Shown one piece after another: positions 1,187 to 14,283 of a stretch of DNA of 64,000 bases (its first letter is position 1; every line of letters starts with the position of its first letter). The notes beneath the pieces are model-generated. The model was given only the letters and a program-made list of their open reading frames with translations, was not told the origin of the DNA and did not search any database. The position numbers were made by a program, and so were the translations under genes. This DNA comes from an uncultured SAR86 cluster bacterium (GTDB lineage Bacteria > Pseudomonadota > Gammaproteobacteria > Magnimaribacterales > AG-339-G14), in NCBI GenBank assembly GCA_902524805.1, contig CABZES010000001.1:1-64000 (forward strand), read 5' to 3'.

Positions 1187-1873
1187 TTATCGTCGCAGTA
1201 ATATAACGATCCAACGACTGAGGTTTAAAATGTCGGCTAGCGCAGCCGATACATAGGTAAGAGCTGCTGCCCTCAGAATTTGACTTACGGCTTTTTCGTT
1301 TGAATGCGATACATAATTCCCTTCCCTCAATATAGGGAGAGCTTTAGAAAAACTTGCATCAAATTCGATTGGCAGAGTCACCGCGTGAATCATCATACGA
1401 GCTATAAAACCGGATAACCCCAGAAAAAGCAATAATGAAAATGGCATTGGATGCCGCGTAATAATGCCGATCACTGGCGATAAAGATATTATGGCAACAC
1501 TCCAACGGGCCACCTTATCAACAATAGGGACCATCTTTGTTCTAGTAGCAAGACGTTTATCGCCTTGCTGATCCTGGATTGCGTGTCCAACCTCATGCGC
1601 TGCAATAGCAATTGCGGTTAATGATTTAGAATCGTAATGTTCTGGCAAGAGCCTAACCTTTTTTTCAATTGGATCATAATGATCTCCTAACTCAGTTACT
1701 TCTACCTTCACATCTTTTAAAGAGAATCGCTCAATTAAGTGCTTCGCAAGCTCTCCACCTGTGCCGGGAATTTCAGGCTGTTGCGATGAATACCTTCTCA
1801 TAACCAACTTCACCCATAAAGAAGGTCCAAATATCAACGCCAAAACTAAGAGCACTCCTGTCGCTAAAACCAT
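1187..1873 (-). CDS. Membrane zinc metallopeptidase (Zn_peptidase_2, YugP-like)
   Basis: The 228-residue product has an N-terminal membrane segment (about 2-20) and the zincin motif HEVGH at about 93-97. Further hydrophobic stretches follow around 117-165 and at the C-terminus. This layout, with IAAHEVGHAIQ placed between membrane segments, is that of the YugP-like zinc-dependent membrane proteases (Pfam Zn_peptidase_2). The two histidines would bind zinc and the glutamate would activate water. Substrates are not established for the family. It lies just beyond the glmS-linked accessory island and could be the ancestral chromosomal neighbour, although no clear island boundary is visible here. 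Length is normal for the family. Confidence 0.85.
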   Translation of the reverse strand: MVLATGVLLVLALIFGPSLWVKLVMRRYSSQQPEIPGTGGELAKHLIERFSLKDVKVEVTELGDHYDPIEKKVRLLPEHYDSKSLTAIAIAAHEVGHAIQDQQGDKRLATRTKMVPIVDKVARWSVAIISLSPVIGIITRHPMPFSLLLFLGLSGFIARMMIHAVTLPIEFDASFSKALPILREGNYVSHSNEKAVSQILRAAALTYVSAALADILNLSRWIVILLRR

Positions 1874-2720: not shown

Positions 2721-2741
2721 CTACTCCACAGTGACTGACTT
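2721..2741 (-). repeat. Displaced glmS 3' end, copy A
   Basis: On the minus strand these 21 bases read AAGTCAGTCACTGTGGAGTAG, encoding KSVTVE-stop, the same C-terminus as the intact GlmS at 6850. Codons differ from the native copy only at synonymous positions. It is the outermost of three extra glmS tails and sits between the Nmad3 gene and the inverted-repeat module at 2744-3406. Confidence 0.85.
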
Positions 2742-2743
2742 GT

Positions 2744-3406
2744 TTTGGGTGTAGGAGTTTAATGTTCATATAACTAAATTAAAACTTGTTTTTTCCAGGT
2801 AATTTACATGTTCCCTTGTGTTCTAAATTTACTTCAAAATCAGGAACCTCTTCATTTGGAAAAATATAAAAAGCGATTTGATTGCTATAAAAACTTCCAG
2901 TTTCTCTATTTATGAATAACTTTTCGGAAACAGAACCCAGATGTACCTCGGAATTAAAATCTTTGCTTAAGAATGAAACATCTTTGTTTCCAAGAGGTTT
3001 GTTAATCCTATTATATTGCCATTCAAAAGAGGCGCTATTTATCTGCATGTCGTCTAGGAGAATCCATTTTGAGGAAAATTTCCTGAAAAAGTATTGATCA
3101 TTAAAAGCAAAATATTGAATCGATTCTCCCCAATCATCTAGTGATTCAAATCCGTTCGGAGAATTGATCTCTTCTGTCTCTGATCCTGTACAAATTAACT
3201 TTATTAAATTTGGTTTTAATTTTTCATAAAGAGAATTTTCTTTTTCAAAAACTGAAATATCTTTATCCGTTATAAGACCAAGAAGATAAAGATCAGGATT
3301 ATCGATAATGTCATTTGTTTGTCCAAAAATATTCATCCCCGTGAGGAAATAAATTATGAGAAAAATGTGAGACAAATTTTTCATTTGGAAAACACCTACA
3401 CCCAAA
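2744..3406. mobile_element. Island module 3: single-gene unit bounded by 17-bp inverted repeats
   Basis: The left end is TTTGGGTGTAGGAGTTT (2744-2760). The right end at 3390-3406 is its inverted copy with one mismatch (16 of 17). Immediately outside each end lies a glmS tail (2721-2741 and 3408-3428). The module carries only one gene, encoding a predicted exported protein. No transposase or recombinase is present. The boundary is seen directly in the sequence; mobility is inferred. Confidence 0.6.
2779..3384 (-). CDS. Predicted secreted protein of unknown function
   Basis: I place the start at the ATG at 3384 rather than the upstream ATG at 3456 of the ORF track. The 24 extra codons would be translated from the displaced glmS tail and inverted repeat, whereas from 3384 the product begins with a classic signal peptide (MKNLSHIFLIIYFLTGMNIFG). 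The mature protein of about 180 residues is acidic, with SFEWQYNRINKP and a C-terminal part containing NLEHKGTCKLPGK. I do not recognise a family. It is the only gene of its module, and the flanking repeats hug it closely. A periplasmic or secreted location is predicted from the signal peptide; nothing further can be said. Confidence 0.6.
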   Translation of the reverse strand: MKNLSHIFLIIYFLTGMNIFGQTNDIIDNPDLYLLGLITDKDISVFEKENSLYEKLKPNLIKLICTGSETEEINSPNGFESLDDWGESIQYFAFNDQYFFRKFSSKWILLDDMQINSASFEWQYNRINKPLGNKDVSFLSKDFNSEVHLGSVSEKLFINRETGSFYSNQIAFYIFPNEEVPDFEVNLEHKGTCKLPGKNKF

Positions 3407-3407
3407 T

Positions 3408-3428
3408 CTACTCCACCGTGACTGATTT
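3408..3428 (-). repeat. Displaced glmS 3' end, copy B
   Basis: The minus strand reads AAATCAGTCACGGTGGAGTAG, again KSVTVE-stop. It sits exactly between the right repeat of module 3 (ending 3406) and the left repeat of module 2 (starting 3429). The tail therefore forms the junction between the two modules. Confidence 0.85.
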
Positions 3429-4629
3429 GATTTGTGTGTGACTGTTTTTTATTCATTTTAAGTTCATGAACCTATTTTTATGATACTCCAAAAAAACTTT
3501 GTCTAATTTGTGCTTTGAGTCTACTGTAAGTTTTTTCCCTTCGAAGTTTTTTAAACCTACTATTTCTAAATTTTCTGGTTCAATATAAAAAGAATAGGCA
3601 TCAAACTGGTCGTGATGATTAGGACATAAACAAAGCATGTTTTCTAGAGTATCGGGTCCATTATGGGGTTTACCTAATCCCTGAATATGTGCGCCGATAG
3701 CAATTCCCATTCCGCCAGGTTTTTCCAAAAAAATTCCGCAAACTTGGCATTTATAATCATAAATATCCTTTATCTTTTCTCTTAAACGAACACTTCGCTG
3801 GACTTTAGTTGTAATTGTCTCTTTTCTTTTTGCAGGCGAATAATCTCTTGGCAGAGTGTCTTGAATATTTTCTTCGATTTCCTGAACAGATTTCTCACTC
3901 TCTAAATGAAATCGACAGATATAGTAACCACTTTTACCCTTTATCCTTTCGTAATCTTTTACGAAAAACAAACCATCATATCTATAACCTTTCTCTGGAC
4001 CGTTTTGAACCTGATATCCTCTTGTTACTCTTACCGGCAAATTATATTCTTTGCTTAAAACCAATCCTTTATTACCTCTTATAAACTCTTGGTCTGATAC
4101 TTGCTTGCCTCCAGGTGAATCCTGACCACCTTGCCCTGTATAAAGAATATAATCGAGTTCATCTACATCATCTTCGTAACCTCCTGATAAGACAATTGAG
4201 CACGCTCCTTCTTTTTCTCTTCCCCAAATTCCATTCATTGGAGGTGTATGAATTCCTGACAAAGAGAGTTCCTCTCTTGATTCAAAGATCTCGCCTTCCT
4301 TTATCCCGGTTATATGACCAAATACAAGGTCAGTATCTTGATTGACCTTCTTAATCATTTTTACTCGGGTTATATCATAGGTTAAGTGATGATGTATCTC
4401 TGAATCGTTCCCTCTATAACCAACTTCATTTGACAATGTGTTTCTATATTCAGAATTTGGTGAATTTATTTCATAAAAAAATTTTCCTTCCTCTCCTATG
4501 AAACTCCATCTTTTTATGTGTTCTTGAGTATGTCTATTTTGATCAATTTCTTTGGAAGTTCTAACAAATTTATCATTATCTTTATATTTCATTTGATTTT
4601 TTAATTCAAAAAACAGTCACACACAAATC
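3429..4629. mobile_element. Island module 2: SRA-HNH gene bounded by perfect 22-bp inverted repeats
   Basis: GATTTGTGTGTGACTGTTTTTT at 3429-3450 is perfectly inverted at 4608-4629. A glmS tail lies directly outside each end (3408-3428 and 4629-4649). The only gene inside is the SRA-HNH endonuclease, which nearly fills the module. No recombinase or transposase gene is present. Movement must depend on a factor supplied elsewhere, or the unit is now immobile. The ends are seen directly; mobility is inferred. Confidence 0.65.
3453..4592 (-). CDS. SRA(YDG)-HNH modification-dependent restriction endonuclease
   Basis: The 379-residue product has an SRA/YDG domain at about 92-240, shown by GHITGIKEGEIFESREELS, SIVLSGGYEDDVD, YTGQGGQD, PVRVTRGYQ and GYRYDGLFFV. 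An HNH nuclease domain follows at about 270-335 (CQVC, AHIQGLGKPHNGPDTLENM, CLCPNHHDQFD), with paired cysteines likely binding zinc. In characterised SRA-HNH proteins the SRA domain flips out 5-methylcytosine or a related modified base and the HNH domain cuts. This makes it a probable type IV restriction enzyme against modified phage DNA. Residues 1-90 are unassigned. No partner methylase is nearby, as expected for type IV. It lies alone between perfect inverted repeats. The exact base recognised cannot be read from the sequence. Confidence 0.85.
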   Translation of the reverse strand: MKYKDNDKFVRTSKEIDQNRHTQEHIKRWSFIGEEGKFFYEINSPNSEYRNTLSNEVGYRGNDSEIHHHLTYDITRVKMIKKVNQDTDLVFGHITGIKEGEIFESREELSLSGIHTPPMNGIWGREKEGACSIVLSGGYEDDVDELDYILYTGQGGQDSPGGKQVSDQEFIRGNKGLVLSKEYNLPVRVTRGYQVQNGPEKGYRYDGLFFVKDYERIKGKSGYYICRFHLESEKSVQEIEENIQDTLPRDYSPAKRKETITTKVQRSVRLREKIKDIYDYKCQVCGIFLEKPGGMGIAIGAHIQGLGKPHNGPDTLENMLCLCPNHHDQFDAYSFYIEPENLEIVGLKNFEGKKLTVDSKHKLDKVFLEYHKNRFMNLK

Positions 4630-4649
4630 TATTCCACAGTCACAGACTG
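4629..4649 (-). repeat. Displaced glmS 3' end, copy C
   Basis: The minus strand reads CAGTCTGTGACTGTGGAATAG, encoding QSVTVE-stop. It is the most diverged of the extra tails but still preserves SVTVE through synonymous codons. It separates the right end of module 2 from the left inverted repeat of module 1 (4653-4671). Confidence 0.8.
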
Positions 4650-4676
4650 ATTGAAAGTAGTGATTTAACATGTCAT

Positions 4677-4991
4677 TTATATTTCCTCATCAAGGATATC
4701 TTTAAACTTCTCTCCTGATTCTTTGAAATAATCCCACGATTTTTTATTTGGAAACCTTTCATTATTTTTATAGTACCCTCTACTGAATAATTCTCCATTT
4801 TGATAAAAATATTGCCATGCTCCCTCTTTAAATCCATTAATCCAAGTTCCTACTGCATTCAAAGAACCATTTTTATAATGCTTGTAGTGACCATGCATGA
4901 TTAGTCCGTCTTTTTTTGAATATGCTCTTTCGGGATTGCCTTTCCAAGATATTCCTTCTTCTATAAAGTGTTTCCTTATAAGTTTCTTCAC
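4677..4991 (-). CDS. Small YwqK/MORN-like repeat protein
   Basis: The 104-residue protein carries short repeats of the form HGHYKHYKNGSLNAVGTW, EGAWQYFYQNGELFSRGYY. These match the G-x-W-x-x-Y-x-x-N-G-x-L pattern of the MORN-like repeats in proteins annotated as YwqK-family antitoxins. The start is GTG at 4991, only a few bases after the stop of the upstream gene (4995-5528), so the two are probably co-translated. Despite the family name, an antitoxin role has not been shown for most members and I do not assign one here. The partner gene would be the obvious candidate if a toxin-antitoxin pair were suspected. Confidence 0.55.
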   Translation of the reverse strand: MKKLIRKHFIEEGISWKGNPERAYSKKDGLIMHGHYKHYKNGSLNAVGTWINGFKEGAWQYFYQNGELFSRGYYKNNERFPNKKSWDYFKESGEKFKDILDEEI

Positions 4992-4994
4992 TAT

Positions 4995-5528
4995 TTAATC
5001 CTTTAAAATGTCGTCTATAATTTTTTTTAAATTTTGGGGGGTTTCTTCAATTTTTTTATCGTGTATTTTTTTCTCTTTTAATGGTTCTGAAGATTCCTTT
5101 TTATCCTCCCAAGGTCTTTCGTATCTGGGATCTTTTGTTGGCGAAAAAACTAACTTGTTATTCCTAAAGTAATCGTCTATGTCATGAAGGAGTTGTATAT
5201 CAATTTTGTTATTACTTCTTGCAACAATTAAAAAAAATAAAATATCTGGGAAGAAAAAAGAACTAATTGCTGGGCAGTGCCCCGAAACAGAATGCATAGA
5301 CCCCATGCCAACCAACTCAAATTCAGTAATTATCTCAGATATGAGTTTAGGGTTAATTTTCCTGAATGTTTCATCATTCCTTAATAAATCACTGAAAGGG
5401 TGATTATTTTGCAAAAAAGAGAAGATTTTTTCGGAAATATTTTTATTATCTGATAGAAGATTTGAATTGTAAGCAGATGTAATATTTTTTATTGCTCTCG
5501 ACTTTTTTATTGAACCCAGAATGCCCAA
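4995..5528 (-). CDS. Hypothetical protein, first gene of a two-gene unit
   Basis: The 177-residue product is not recognised. Residues 1-15 are basic (MGILGSIKKSRAIKN). The middle contains a semi-hydrophobic stretch (SSFFFPDILFFLIVARSN) following HSVSGHCPAI. The last 40 residues are charged and lysine-rich (KKESSEPLKEKKIHDKK) and probably disordered. It is followed almost directly by the YwqK-like gene, which suggests functional pairing. The codon use and AT content match the rest of the island. No catalytic motif could be identified. Confidence 0.5.
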   Translation of the reverse strand: MGILGSIKKSRAIKNITSAYNSNLLSDNKNISEKIFSFLQNNHPFSDLLRNDETFRKINPKLISEIITEFELVGMGSMHSVSGHCPAISSFFFPDILFFLIVARSNNKIDIQLLHDIDDYFRNNKLVFSPTKDPRYERPWEDKKESSEPLKEKKIHDKKIEETPQNLKKIIDDILKD

Positions 5529-5531
5529 TGT

Positions 5532-5675
5532 TTACAAATAAAAAATTATATAAGGTAATCCGAAAACTAAATACCACACAATTAATTTGGGCATTTCCGA
5601 AGACAAGTCCTGAGATCCTGGGAGAATAAACAGTAATATAGGCAAAATAAGCATAATTACTAAAAAGATTTCCAT
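5532..5675 (-). CDS. Small two-helix membrane protein (47 aa)
   Basis: This ORF is too short for the supplied track. It begins with ATG at 5675 and ends with TAA at 5532-5534, three bases before the next gene. The product starts MEIFLVIMLILPILLFILPG and ends with a second hydrophobic stretch (LIVWYLVFGLPYIIFYL), giving two predicted membrane segments joined by a short polar loop. It is in the same orientation as, and very close to, the genes on both sides, so it is probably a real member of the module. Function is unknown. Confidence 0.5.
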   Translation of the reverse strand: MEIFLVIMLILPILLFILPGSQDLSSEMPKLIVWYLVFGLPYIIFYL

Positions 5676-5696
5676 TGCGTATATTAACTAAAAAAT

Positions 5697-5990
5697 TTAA
5701 TTACTTTCAATCCTTAATTCAAAATCTTTTATTACGAATCTAGTGGGAATCTCAAAATATTTTGAGAACATGTTCCATGCTTCTTTTTGAGATTTAAATT
5801 TTATTTTGCTGCCCATGCCACCACGAGACCATCCCATCCCAGTTATTTTTGCGCCCTCCTTGTCAGAAAAATCTATAAAAACGTAAGTGTGAACGCTGGT
5901 AGTAAAACAGAAAATTATTTTATCAGGGTCTGGTTCTCCCTTTTCCCAATGAAATTGATTAAAAACATAAAGTTCAGATGGTTTTGACAT
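5697..5990 (-). CDS. Hypothetical protein (97 aa)
   Basis: The 97-residue soluble-looking protein reads as an alternating beta-type domain (ELYVFNQFHW, DKIIFCFTTSVHTYVFIDF) with a glycine-rich turn (GMGWSRGGMGSKI) and a C-terminal helix-strand (EAWNMFSKYF, RFVIKDFELRI). It starts with ATG at 5990. I do not recognise a family. It belongs to module 1 of the glmS-linked island. A minus-strand run of short genes around it suggests a shared transcript. Confidence 0.45.
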   Translation of the reverse strand: MSKPSELYVFNQFHWEKGEPDPDKIIFCFTTSVHTYVFIDFSDKEGAKITGMGWSRGGMGSKIKFKSQKEAWNMFSKYFEIPTRFVIKDFELRIESN

Positions 5991-6096
5991 GTTGCCTCCA
6001 TTAATTGTTGATTAACCGCATCATTTTTCCACCTTGCCGGAGTGGGCAGGTTGGAGAGGAATTTAATCCTGCTCTTGATACAAAATTTATTATACT

Positions 6097-6453
6097 TTAT
6101 TTTTTTAGAAAATTTGATACAAAATCATCGCAAATTTTTGCTACTGCTTGCGCATCTTCGTCATTAAAACTTTTGTCTGGTCTGTTTTCATAGTTGTTGC
6201 AAAATGTTTCACAAGCGTCGCTAGAACAGAATGCTGTAACGCTAAGATTAAGTAGGCGTAAAATTTCGTTTGAAGGAATTATTTTTTGCTGGTTTAAGAC
6301 CGATCTACAAATAGAATTAATTTCTTCATCTGTGGCAACTCTGCTGTTCTCAGATTCCCATTTTCTAAGGTGATTTCCTGCCTGAAAAACTAAAGCGTAT
6401 TGAAGGACATTATAAGACCCAAACAATTCTTGGACACTTAGTTCTCTACTCAT
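6097..6453 (-). CDS. Hypothetical helical protein (118 aa)
   Basis: The 118-residue product looks entirely helical (MSRELSVQELFGSYNVLQYALVFQ...). It has three cysteines in the centre (ITAFCSSDACETFCNN-like spacing) that could form a disulfide or bind metal. No signal peptide or membrane segment is visible. The gene starts with ATG at 6453 and ends with TTTTTTA-rich sequence downstream. It lies in module 1. The 106 bases between it and the next gene contain an imperfect GC-rich hairpin around 6030-6052. No family was recognised. Confidence 0.45.
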   Translation of the reverse strand: MSRELSVQELFGSYNVLQYALVFQAGNHLRKWESENSRVATDEEINSICRSVLNQQKIIPSNEILRLLNLSVTAFCSSDACETFCNNYENRPDKSFNDEDAQAVAKICDDFVSNFLKK

Positions 6454-6509: not shown

Positions 6510-6841
6510 CATTATTTAATAATCAATTTGAATTTTCCCAATCTACTACGATATTTCTTATTTCGAATTTGCTGATATCGTTCATCTCGTTCAGAAAATC
6601 TTTTCAAGATTGCATGTACATGATTATTTTTGAAGTCTTTATTTGTATGAGTTTTTATTCCAGAAACATTTAACCAATTTGCAATTCTTCGATAACCCAG
6701 ACCTTCGCGTTTAAGGGTTCTGATTATTTTTAAGAGAATAAATTGTCGTTTTGAAATTTCTTTTTCCCAAGTCAGATTATTGCTTCGACAATAAAGTTTA
6801 AAAACTAGATAGTGATGTTTTTTGAGTGATGTTAAATCACT
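6510..6841 (-). pseudogene. ORF fragment resembling a serine-recombinase DNA-binding segment, no start codon
   Basis: This reading frame is missing from the track because it has no ATG, GTG or TTG near its 5' end. It reads SDLTSLKKHHYLVFKLYC, then EGLGYRRIANWLNVSGIKT, then HVHAILKRF and a basic tail, ending TAA at 6510-6512. The pattern G-x-x-Y-R-x-I-A-x-W-L-N-x-x-G-I-x-T followed by V-x-x-I-L resembles the 'Recombinase' region of large serine recombinases, without the catalytic domain. Its 5' end lies inside the inverted repeat at 6829-6847, right against the glmS stop. It may be a truncated gene, or a real one with a non-standard start. The family assignment is tentative. Confidence 0.45.
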
Positions 6842-6849
6842 ACTTTCGC

Positions 6850-8676
6850 CTACTCTACCGTAACGGACTTAGCTAAGTTTCTTGGTTGATCGATATCTGT
6901 GCCTCTGATCAGAGCTACCTCGTAAGACAATATTTGCAGCGGGATAGTATAAAGAATTGGCGTTAATAAAAAGTCACATTTTGGCATGGTCATTAACTTG
7001 CCAGAATCGATTTGCATATTGCTAGATGCATCTCCAAAAACGTACAAAGTCCCGCTCCTTGCTTTTACTTCCTCCAAGTTTGAAATAAGTTTTTCGGCCA
7101 ATTCGCTTTCTGGAGCAAGCGCCACGACAGGCATATTCTCATCAATCAATGCTAGTGGTCCGTGTTTTAACTCGCCTGCTGGATAAGCTTCAGCATGAAT
7201 ATAAGAAATTTCTTTTAACTTTAATGCTCCTTCTTTAGCGATTGGATAAAACATACCGCGTCCAAGAAAAAGAGCATTGTCTTTTTCTGCAATTTTGGGC
7301 GAAATCTCTTGAATTTCTTTTTTTAGTTTTAAAGATTCTTCAACAATCTCAGGCAATGCTCTTAAAGCTGTAACAATTCTTGTTCTAAGTTTGGGATTAA
7401 CATTTTTTGCCTTGGCAATCGACATTGCCAACATCATCAATGCGACTAACTGAGTTGTAAAAGCTTTGGTAGAAGCAACACCTATTTCTGGACCAGCATT
7501 AGTGAGTAAGAGAAAATCAGATTCTCTAGCAATGGAGCTGGTTGGTACGTTGCAAATAGTTAAGGAGCCTAAGTAGCTTTGATTTTTTGCATGCCTCAAA
7601 GAAGTCAATGTATCCGCAGTCTCGCCAGATTGAGAAATAGTTACTAGCAAAGTATTTTCATCAATATAAGGATTTTTGTATGTATATTCACTCGCAAAAT
7701 CTATTTGCGTTGGTACTTGAGAAATTGCTGAAAACCAGTTTGCCGCAACTCTGCCTGCATGCAAGCTAGTGCCAGCAGCGACAATTTGGATTCTTTTTAC
7801 TTCCGCTAGCAACTTTGAAGAGCCTTCTCCGAAAATATTCTCTAAAACGTCTTCGCCACCGATTCTTCCATCTAAGGTATTTCTGATGGCTTGAGGTTGT
7901 TCGTAAATCTCCTTTTCCATGAAATGCTTATAATTCCCTTTTGAAGTCGTCTCAGCAGAAATATCAATTTTTGTGACATTTCTTTCAACAGCTTTTTGAT
8001 TTTCATCAAAGATTTCTAAGCCTGATGCCGAGACTGCTGCTGTGTCTCCATCTTCCAAAAAAATAAACTGATTTGTTAATTCGCCAATTGCCAAAGGATC
8101 TGAAGCAGCAAAATACTCATCTTTCCCCAAACCTAAAAGCAAAGGAGATTTGTTTCTGGCTAAATAAAAATAATTTGAGTCTTCCTTATCTATTGCTGCA
8201 ATTGCGTAGGCTCCCTCAAGACTAGTTTTAAGCGCCTGCATGCCTTCAATCATACTTTTGCCATCATTTAGAAAACTATCAATAAGGTGAGCTATCAATT
8301 CTGAATCCGTTTGAGACTGAAATAAATAACCTTTTTTTGATAAAGCAGCTTTCAAAGCTAAATAGTTTTCAATGATGCCGTTGTGCACAATAAACACTCT
8401 ATTTTTTGACGAATGAGGATGGGCATTTGATTCAGAAGGCTCGCCATGAGTTGCCCATCGAGTGTGCGCAATGCCTACTTTGCCTTTCGGCTTTTCTTGT
8501 ATCATTCTTTCTTCGAGCAAATTGACTTTCCCGAGCGTTCTTAAATGTGCAACACCATCCTCTTGGTGCAAAGCAATACCCGCCGAGTCATAACCTCGGT
8601 ACTCCATTTTATGAAGCCCCTGAACTAGAAGTTTTCCGACACTTCTGTCAGTAGCTGCTGCAATTATTCCGCACAT
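6850..8676 (-). CDS. glmS: Glutamine--fructose-6-phosphate aminotransferase (isomerizing)
   Basis: The 608-residue protein makes glucosamine-6-phosphate from fructose-6-phosphate and glutamine, the first step to UDP-GlcNAc for peptidoglycan and lipid A. The N-terminal glutaminase begins MCGIIAA, with Cys2 as the nucleophile. Two SIS domains (about 290-430 and 460-600) follow, with SQSGETADT in the sugar-binding part, and the protein ends in the conserved tail KSVTVE. It overlaps the end of glmU by one base, as part of an atp-glmU-glmS run. Its 3' end is the target of the neighbouring island: three further copies of the last seven codons lie downstream. The gene itself is intact and of normal length. 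Confidence 0.97.
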   Translation of the reverse strand: MCGIIAAATDRSVGKLLVQGLHKMEYRGYDSAGIALHQEDGVAHLRTLGKVNLLEERMIQEKPKGKVGIAHTRWATHGEPSESNAHPHSSKNRVFIVHNGIIENYLALKAALSKKGYLFQSQTDSELIAHLIDSFLNDGKSMIEGMQALKTSLEGAYAIAAIDKEDSNYFYLARNKSPLLLGLGKDEYFAASDPLAIGELTNQFIFLEDGDTAAVSASGLEIFDENQKAVERNVTKIDISAETTSKGNYKHFMEKEIYEQPQAIRNTLDGRIGGEDVLENIFGEGSSKLLAEVKRIQIVAAGTSLHAGRVAANWFSAISQVPTQIDFASEYTYKNPYIDENTLLVTISQSGETADTLTSLRHAKNQSYLGSLTICNVPTSSIARESDFLLLTNAGPEIGVASTKAFTTQLVALMMLAMSIAKAKNVNPKLRTRIVTALRALPEIVEESLKLKKEIQEISPKIAEKDNALFLGRGMFYPIAKEGALKLKEISYIHAEAYPAGELKHGPLALIDENMPVVALAPESELAEKLISNLEEVKARSGTLYVFGDASSNMQIDSGKLMTMPKCDFLLTPILYTIPLQILSYEVALIRGTDIDQPRNLAKSVTVE

Positions 8677-12738: not shown

Positions 12739-14283
12739 TTACCAAGTTTGCGTTGATTTAAATTTGTCGATGGCATCGGCAAAAGTTTTAATCACTTCAT
12801 CAGAGTACTCTCCCGAAACAGCCAAAGCGTCCATAAAGTCTTTGTGTTCGGTTGCCATATAAGAAAGGAGAGCAGATTCGAAGTCAGCAATTTTTGTTAA
12901 CTCCACGTCTTTTAAATGTCCTTTTTCAACTGCAAATAATACGAGTCCCATTTCCGAAACTGACATTGGTGAATACTGCTTTTGTTTCATCAGCTCAGTT
13001 ACTTTTTGACCAAGCTCAAGTTGCTCTCTTGAGGCATCATCTAAATCCGAGGCGAACTGAGCAAAAGCTTCTAACTCTCTAAATTGTGCCAAGGCAATCC
13101 TAACTCCACCTCCAAGTTTTTTGATAAGCGGCGTTTGAGCTGCTCCACCGACCCTGGAGACTGATATTCCAGGATTCATTGCTGGCAAAAGCCCTTTGTT
13201 AAAGTAGGAAGTTTCTAAGAATATTTGTCCATCAGTAATTGAAATAACGTTGGTTGGCACAAAAGCAGATACATCGCCTGCTTGCGTTTCAATAATTGGT
13301 AAAGCAGTTAAGGAGCCTGTTTGTTCTTTTACTTTTCCATCGGTTTCTTCAGAGACGTATTCCTCATTAACCCGGCAGGCTCTTTCTAAAAGTCTTGAAT
13401 GCAAATAAAAAATGTCTCCTGGATATGCCTCTCGTCCTGGCGGTCTCCTCAACAAAAGAGAAATTTGACGATAAGCGACTGCTTGCTTAGACAGATCATC
13501 ATAAATAATTAAAGCATCCTCACCTTTATCTCTAAAGTATTCTCCCATTGAGCAGCCAGAATATGGTGCTAAAAATTGCATTGGTGCAGGATCAGCCGCA
13601 CCTGCAGCAACGACAATGGTGTGCTCCATTGCGCCGAATTCTTCTAGTTTTCTAACTACTGCTGCAATAGAAGATTGTTTTTGTCCCACTGCAACATAGA
13701 CACAGGTTACGCCTGTGCCCTTCTGATTAATGATCGCATCTAAAGCGATCGCTGTTTTTCCAGTTTGCCTGTCTCCGATAATAAGCTCTCTCTGACCTCT
13801 GCCAATGGGCACCATGCTGTCAACAGCTTTTAAGCCAATTTGAACTGGTTCATCTACGGGTTTTCTAGTCATGACCCCGGGCGCCACTTTTTCCACCGGC
13901 GAAGTAAGCTTGCTGTCAATTGGGCCTTTGCCGTCAATTGGATTTCCAAGGGCATCGACTACCCTGCCTACTAGTTCCGGCCCTACTGGAACCTCTAAAA
14001 TCTTCCCAGTACATTTTGCTGTATCGCCTTCTGCTAGCTGTTTGTAATCACCAAATATGACGACGCCAACTGAATCTCTTTCTAAATTAAGGGCCATACC
14101 AAAAATGCCGCCTTGAAACTCAATCAATTCCCCATACATGGCTTCGCTTAAGCCATGCACTCTTGCGATTCCATCGGAAAGGAATACAATTGTTCCTTCG
14201 TTAGATTCGTCTGAGGACACCTCTAAATTATTTATTCTATCTTTAATAATTTTGCTTATTTCTGATGGGTTTAAGTTATCCAT
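12739..14283 (-). CDS. atpA: ATP synthase F1 subunit alpha
   Basis: The 514-residue non-catalytic nucleotide-binding subunit carries the P-loop GDRQTGKT at about 170-177 and the signature [14 protein letters not shown]. It alternates with beta in the hexamer and provides the arginine finger region. It stands between atpH and atpG, with short spacers. Length and motifs are normal. Confidence 0.98.

Follow-up and report, generated by a model that had tools for sequence, protein, structure and literature searches.

A startless reading frame beside glmS in a SAR86 bacterium is probably the C-terminal module of a serine recombinase system with attP inside its own coding sequence

The window, by which we mean the whole 64,000-nucleotide stretch of DNA that was analysed, comes from an uncultured SAR86 cluster bacterium. 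On its minus strand lies glmS (6850..8676, stop codon at 6850-6852), the host target gene with a putative attB at its 3' end, and next to it, on the same strand, an open frame (6512..6841) of 109 codons (6841..6515) and a stop (6512-6514). Upstream, the frame stays open through the glmS 3' end (6842..6868, minus strand) and enters the last glmS codons, giving a stop-to-stop span of 118 codons that contains no ATG, GTG or TTG; the plus strand across the interval is crowded with stops. A preliminary description of this sequence had drawn attention to the startless frame and to a recombinase-like signature within it, and both are there, the latter as Y-R-R-I-A-N-W-L-N-V-S-G-I-K-T. It had also placed the start of the ORF inside a terminal inverted repeat, and this proved correct: a right arm adjoining glmS (6829..6847) and a complementary left arm (4653..4671) match at 19/19 nt. 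The repeat does not enclose a single stand-alone element, as had been supposed: the stretch between its arms is unit 1 of a tandem series in which copies of the glmS 3' end mark the unit boundaries.

Comparison with relatives shows that the startless ORF is coding and under purifying selection, because differences between the window and the copy in genome G002 fall 8/8/28 over the three codon positions (dN 0.071, dS 0.554), a pattern absent from the other reading frames of the interval. dN/dS is approximately 0.13 against an 87%-identical relative, the G074/G076 pair has dN 0.126 and dS 0.893, and the ratio is 0.13-0.16 across the three pairs compared. This range speaks against the idea that an old integration left the ORF behind as a defunct piece of a recombinase gene with no further role, as do the intact arms and the in-frame, rejoinable 5' piece found in the window. 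Stop codons interrupting the copies in G050 and G082 and the lack of a catalytic half in the window weigh in favour of a remnant, which we nonetheless regard as unlikely. At a minimum, selection operates on the pool of free elements, although the window copy could have been stranded recently.

Profile searches, which the preliminary description had suggested as a check, connect the ORF with the DNA-binding domain of large serine recombinases. It matches PF07508 (Recombinase) at 1.7e-6 and 28.6 bits, above the curated cut-off of 21.1 and over only 39/102 profile positions, and an intact serine recombinase on a marine contig, L165, has a homologous C-terminal domain (37% over 79 aa, 8e-10). The earlier suggestion of a truncated recombinase was therefore essentially right, the ORF being homologous to this domain and cut at the att site. 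There is also a weak alignment (0.005) to most of PHROG 9120, a 127-aa family of unknown function, with residues 13-100 of the ORF against 33-119. The N-terminal Resolvase catalytic domain is absent from the ORF and none was found elsewhere in its own genome. Phage and plasmid collections returned no match to the ORF, and a scan of viral sequences with alignment A1 gave no conserved stretch. The predicted fold (pLDDT 81) is helix-turn-helix-like, with a helix-turn-helix between two strands, and a search of this model against the PDB gave no significant match. The conserved module may help to bind DNA or be needed for recombination. To this extent the ORF could be the protein that marks glmS for insertion, as had been proposed; a role in choosing the target did not find support.

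The closest named relative of the ORF comes from an uncultured SAR86 bacterium, and homologues are present in 12 of 101 SAR86 genomes, its own included. Nine of the 12 lie directly 3' of glmS, also in families whose glmS is only ~50% identical to that of the window; the others lie further down the region behind glmS (G001 and G050) or on a contig without glmS (G082). Outside SAR86, matches in other gammaproteobacteria (G283, G207, G333 and G660) are again directly behind glmS; in G283 the two ends are not partners and the arms differ. The linkage to glmS that the preliminary description asked of homologues thus exists within SAR86 and beyond it.

The tandem units are delimited by copies of the final ~21 bp of glmS, AAGTCNGTNACNGTNGANTAG. 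In the window, this att core lies at the glmS 3' end (6850..6870, minus strand, AAGTCCGTTACGGTAGAGTAG, symmetry centre A6861|C6860) and recurs on the same strand at the ends of unit 1 (4629..4649), unit 2 (3408..3428) and unit 3 (2721..2741). Across 76 stretches downstream of glmS in SAR86 genomes, we counted 124 extra copies in the same orientation and none reversed. The central AC is invariant, and a sequence logo shows that most differences between copies are at codon wobble positions, a bias to be expected if each insertion has to restore a functional glmS end. Between close relatives, variation at the third base of each of the last three glmS codons approaches saturation (13, 18 and 19 of 25), in keeping with a supply of these bases by the units. 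Variation also reaches the third base in the codon immediately left of AC (15/25), which counts against the model, since a clean crossover at AC would not predict it. A transposon target-site duplication was considered and rejected, the two core copies of one unit differing at several wobble positions.

Each unit has an arm at its start and the reverse complement of that arm at its end (repeat I4 in unit 1), so arranged that rejoining the unit ends leaves the arms flanking the core. Arms pair only when centred exactly between A and C of GTNAC, every other register being at background. Mean pairing over positions 14-30 was 0.582 compared to 0.358 for mismatched units, and pairing of at least 70% was seen in 58 of 123 units where ~6 were expected. 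Serine integrase attP sites are pseudo-palindromic, with half-sites of ~25 bp on either side of a central dinucleotide (PMC3783163); the array sites resemble them in being symmetric about a central dinucleotide and in the distance over which pairing fades (~28 nt from the centre, against the 25-bp half-site). The arms vary so much from unit to unit that several recombinases may act on the glmS target. In the L048, L050, L110 and L116 arrays, several units share a long arm at their start (GTTTAATCGGTCTTTCATTTTAATCCCGCATTCTGCGG or a variant of it) that contains a second palindrome.

An array at this site brings other systems to mind. The 3' end of glmS is the target of Tn7, and short, one-directional cargo units arrayed beside a fixed site are a likeness to integron cassettes. 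That the array is a Tn7-like or integron system, with the ORF as unrelated cargo, is nevertheless the least probable of the readings we weighed, and we give it very little credence: the homologous module physically belongs to a serine recombinase with the same att core, and the site architecture differs from that of integrons, where pairing is within a single attC site, in that here the arms at opposite ends of a unit pair with each other. In addition, no integron integrase (IntI) was found among the Phage_integrase proteins of SAR86 genomes, which mostly hold just two such tyrosine recombinases, as expected for XerC and XerD and most simply explained by them.

Scanning viral contigs for the att core identified L165 and elements already integrated at glmS. 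L165, a single metagenomic contig of 7.4 kb, is probably circular because it has a 77-bp terminal repeat. It encodes an intact 733-aa serine recombinase with all three domains of large serine recombinases of the A118 and phiC31 type (Resolvase, PF00239; Recombinase, PF07508; Zn ribbon, PF13408), and the att core lies inside this gene, antisense, just ahead of the C-terminal domain. As the L165 orientation predicts, the module in G001 lies on the opposite strand, at a core. The integrated state is seen in L183, of which L198 is a longer stretch: a startless C-piece follows the glmS core, and a 601-aa N-piece carrying the Resolvase catalytic domain enters the second core; beyond it lie another C-piece and, at some distance, another recombinase, so that two elements stand in tandem. 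Rejoined at AC, the N- and C-pieces form a single frame of 724 aa. L186 and L153 encode the module as a gene of its own: the recombinase ends, and an ATG 13 codons ahead of the junction then opens the C-piece frame. The recombination site is thus inside the integrase gene in L165 and in rejoined L183, and the gene lies in two pieces at the element ends in L183/L198, L186 and L153, both being features of suicidal integrases. Further scans of viral contigs with the L165, L183, L134 and L090 proteins added only L198. PF00239 occurs in only 4 of 41 SAR86 genomes, that of the window not among them. It weighs against the account proposed below that no catalytic recombinase half was found in the window and that the L183 enzyme matched 0 of 101 SAR86 genomes, so that an enzyme acting on the SAR86 arrays has yet to be seen.

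Three further observations concern these and related elements. L134 and L135 (in G047 and G050) encode ~525-aa serine recombinases ending in VELRGIEPRTPCLQSRCSPS-type peptides that resemble antisense tRNA sequence, and may be relatives in which the split occurs at a tRNA gene rather than at glmS. Near the left end of both tandem elements of L198, in addition to the serine recombinase, there is a ~203-aa tyrosine-recombinase-like protein (667-1278 and 12949-13560). In L186 (8380-8886), a protein has an LHIHMTL stretch resembling an HUH replication initiator, suggesting an element that replicates by rolling circle.

A candidate 5' piece of the split gene is present in the window at the far end of unit 1 (4640..4671, minus strand; ATG TTA AAT CAC TAC TTT CAA TCA GTC TGT GA). 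When the unit ends are computationally rejoined at AC, the ATG at 4671 opens a frame, MLNHYFQSVCDGRVGESSDLTSL..., that continues in frame into 6860..6512 and encodes 126 aa, and we infer that it is this frame that is used in vivo. The window module is probably a separate ~126-aa gene with the site only in its 5' end. An in-frame ATG is also found in 31 of 124 random unit tails, against 5 of 7 ORF-bearing units, several of them related; the test across units is therefore positive but modest, and in G062 (L090) rejoining leaves the frame unrestored. Because the in-frame ATG of the window is weak alone, the account of attP within the gene rests mainly on the anatomy of L183, L186 and L153. Between the two pieces, unit 1 carries cargo ORFs of 118, 97, 177 and 104 aa (4677..6453, minus strand); those that were scanned contain no resolvase domain. 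Lacking a catalytic half, unit 1 is probably non-autonomous.

These split genes also bear on whether the ORF is a real small DNA-binding protein made while integrated, by way of a rare start codon or a frameshift out of glmS. The absence of stops through the glmS end and the purifying selection on the frame fit such a protein, but relatives carry the missing 5' part at the opposite end, and we consider it very unlikely that the ORF is translated in this way. Both routes were examined and rejected. The frame relative to glmS differs among homologues (1 in the window, L046, L055, L085, L102 and L106; 0 in L090 and L099), which rules out a conserved frameshift, and the codons listed for the homologues hold no shared candidate for a rare start. 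The unusual start raised in the preliminary description is likewise improbable: the start codon appears to sit at the far end of the unit, joined to the ORF only in the circular form.

On the basis of sequence comparison, we therefore propose, with a probability of roughly 85%, that the startless ORF is the C-terminal module, Int(C), of a large serine recombinase system that has attP within its own coding sequence. The gene would be whole in the circular element. The central AC of attP would recombine with the matching AC in the last glmS codons (attB), inserting the element and cutting the gene, so that the startless C-terminal piece stays beside glmS and the ATG-bearing 5' piece moves to the far end, ahead of the second att core. 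Integration would thereby halt production of the enzyme and lock the element into position, with excision then dependent on an intact recombinase from another copy. The module is fused to the catalytic part in some relatives and forms a separate ~126-aa gene in others, probably including the window, and units without a recombinase, such as unit 1, would be moved in trans by visiting elements. Recombination by this route, loss of activity on integration and mobilisation in trans are all predicted from the arrangement of the genes and sites.

The closest parallel is with the 'suicidal' tyrosine integrases of the archaeal SSV1 type, in which the site is inside the integrase gene and integration splits the gene into int(N) and int(C) between the element ends; a review describes suicidal integrases as exclusive to archaea (PMC8371274). 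The glmS system resembles these in having the recombination site within the gene and the pieces at the element ends. Unlike them, it is bacterial, targets glmS and uses a serine recombinase in place of the tyrosine recombinase catalytic domain of the SSV family proper, with the catalytic domain on the N-piece and a small helix-turn-helix-like C-piece. It would thus work like an SSV integrase without being a member of the family. Our literature search, with subscription papers and preprints outside its scope, found no report of a serine-type or bacterial self-splitting integrase. Large serine recombinases share the domains and the pseudo-palindromic att sites with a central dinucleotide and ~25-bp half-sites, but not an additional C-terminal module with attP ahead of it in the coding sequence; in phiRSM, for instance, attP lies between genes and not within the recombinase. 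At rlmH, a conserved housekeeping gene, serine recombinases insert SCC elements in tandem into the 3' end, and the elements carry gene-end repeats. The glmS units are like them in tandem insertion at such a gene end and in these repeats, but have another target gene, and most are less than 2 kb and without a recombinase.

A wider picture, which we put forward tentatively and rate at slightly under an even chance, is that SAR86 keeps an integron-like store of small mobile units at the glmS 3' end, run by self-splitting serine recombinases. Each unit would repair glmS with its own copy of the gene end, the enzyme would be made only from free circles, so that insertion shuts it off, and units without a recombinase would move when a complete element visits. 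Such a system would explain a class of startless ORFs overlooked by gene finders, as well as the gathering of cargo genes, some restriction-like, beside glmS in streamlined SAR86 genomes. A serine-type, bacterial version at a highly conserved gene end would mean that a second enzyme class had evolved this strategy independently, and would offer an integration tool that switches itself off.

The cargo of unit 2 (3453-4592, minus strand) is a protein with SRA and HNH domains, like modification-dependent restriction enzymes. The ORF listed at 2779-3456 (minus strand) begins within the end of the unit before it and runs across the third att core; translation probably starts instead at the internal M that precedes KNLSHIF. 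Finally, a 228-aa membrane protein encoded at 1187-1873 (minus strand) is also found at the far side of the glmS-downstream region in G001 and G050, and may be the original host neighbour after glmS.
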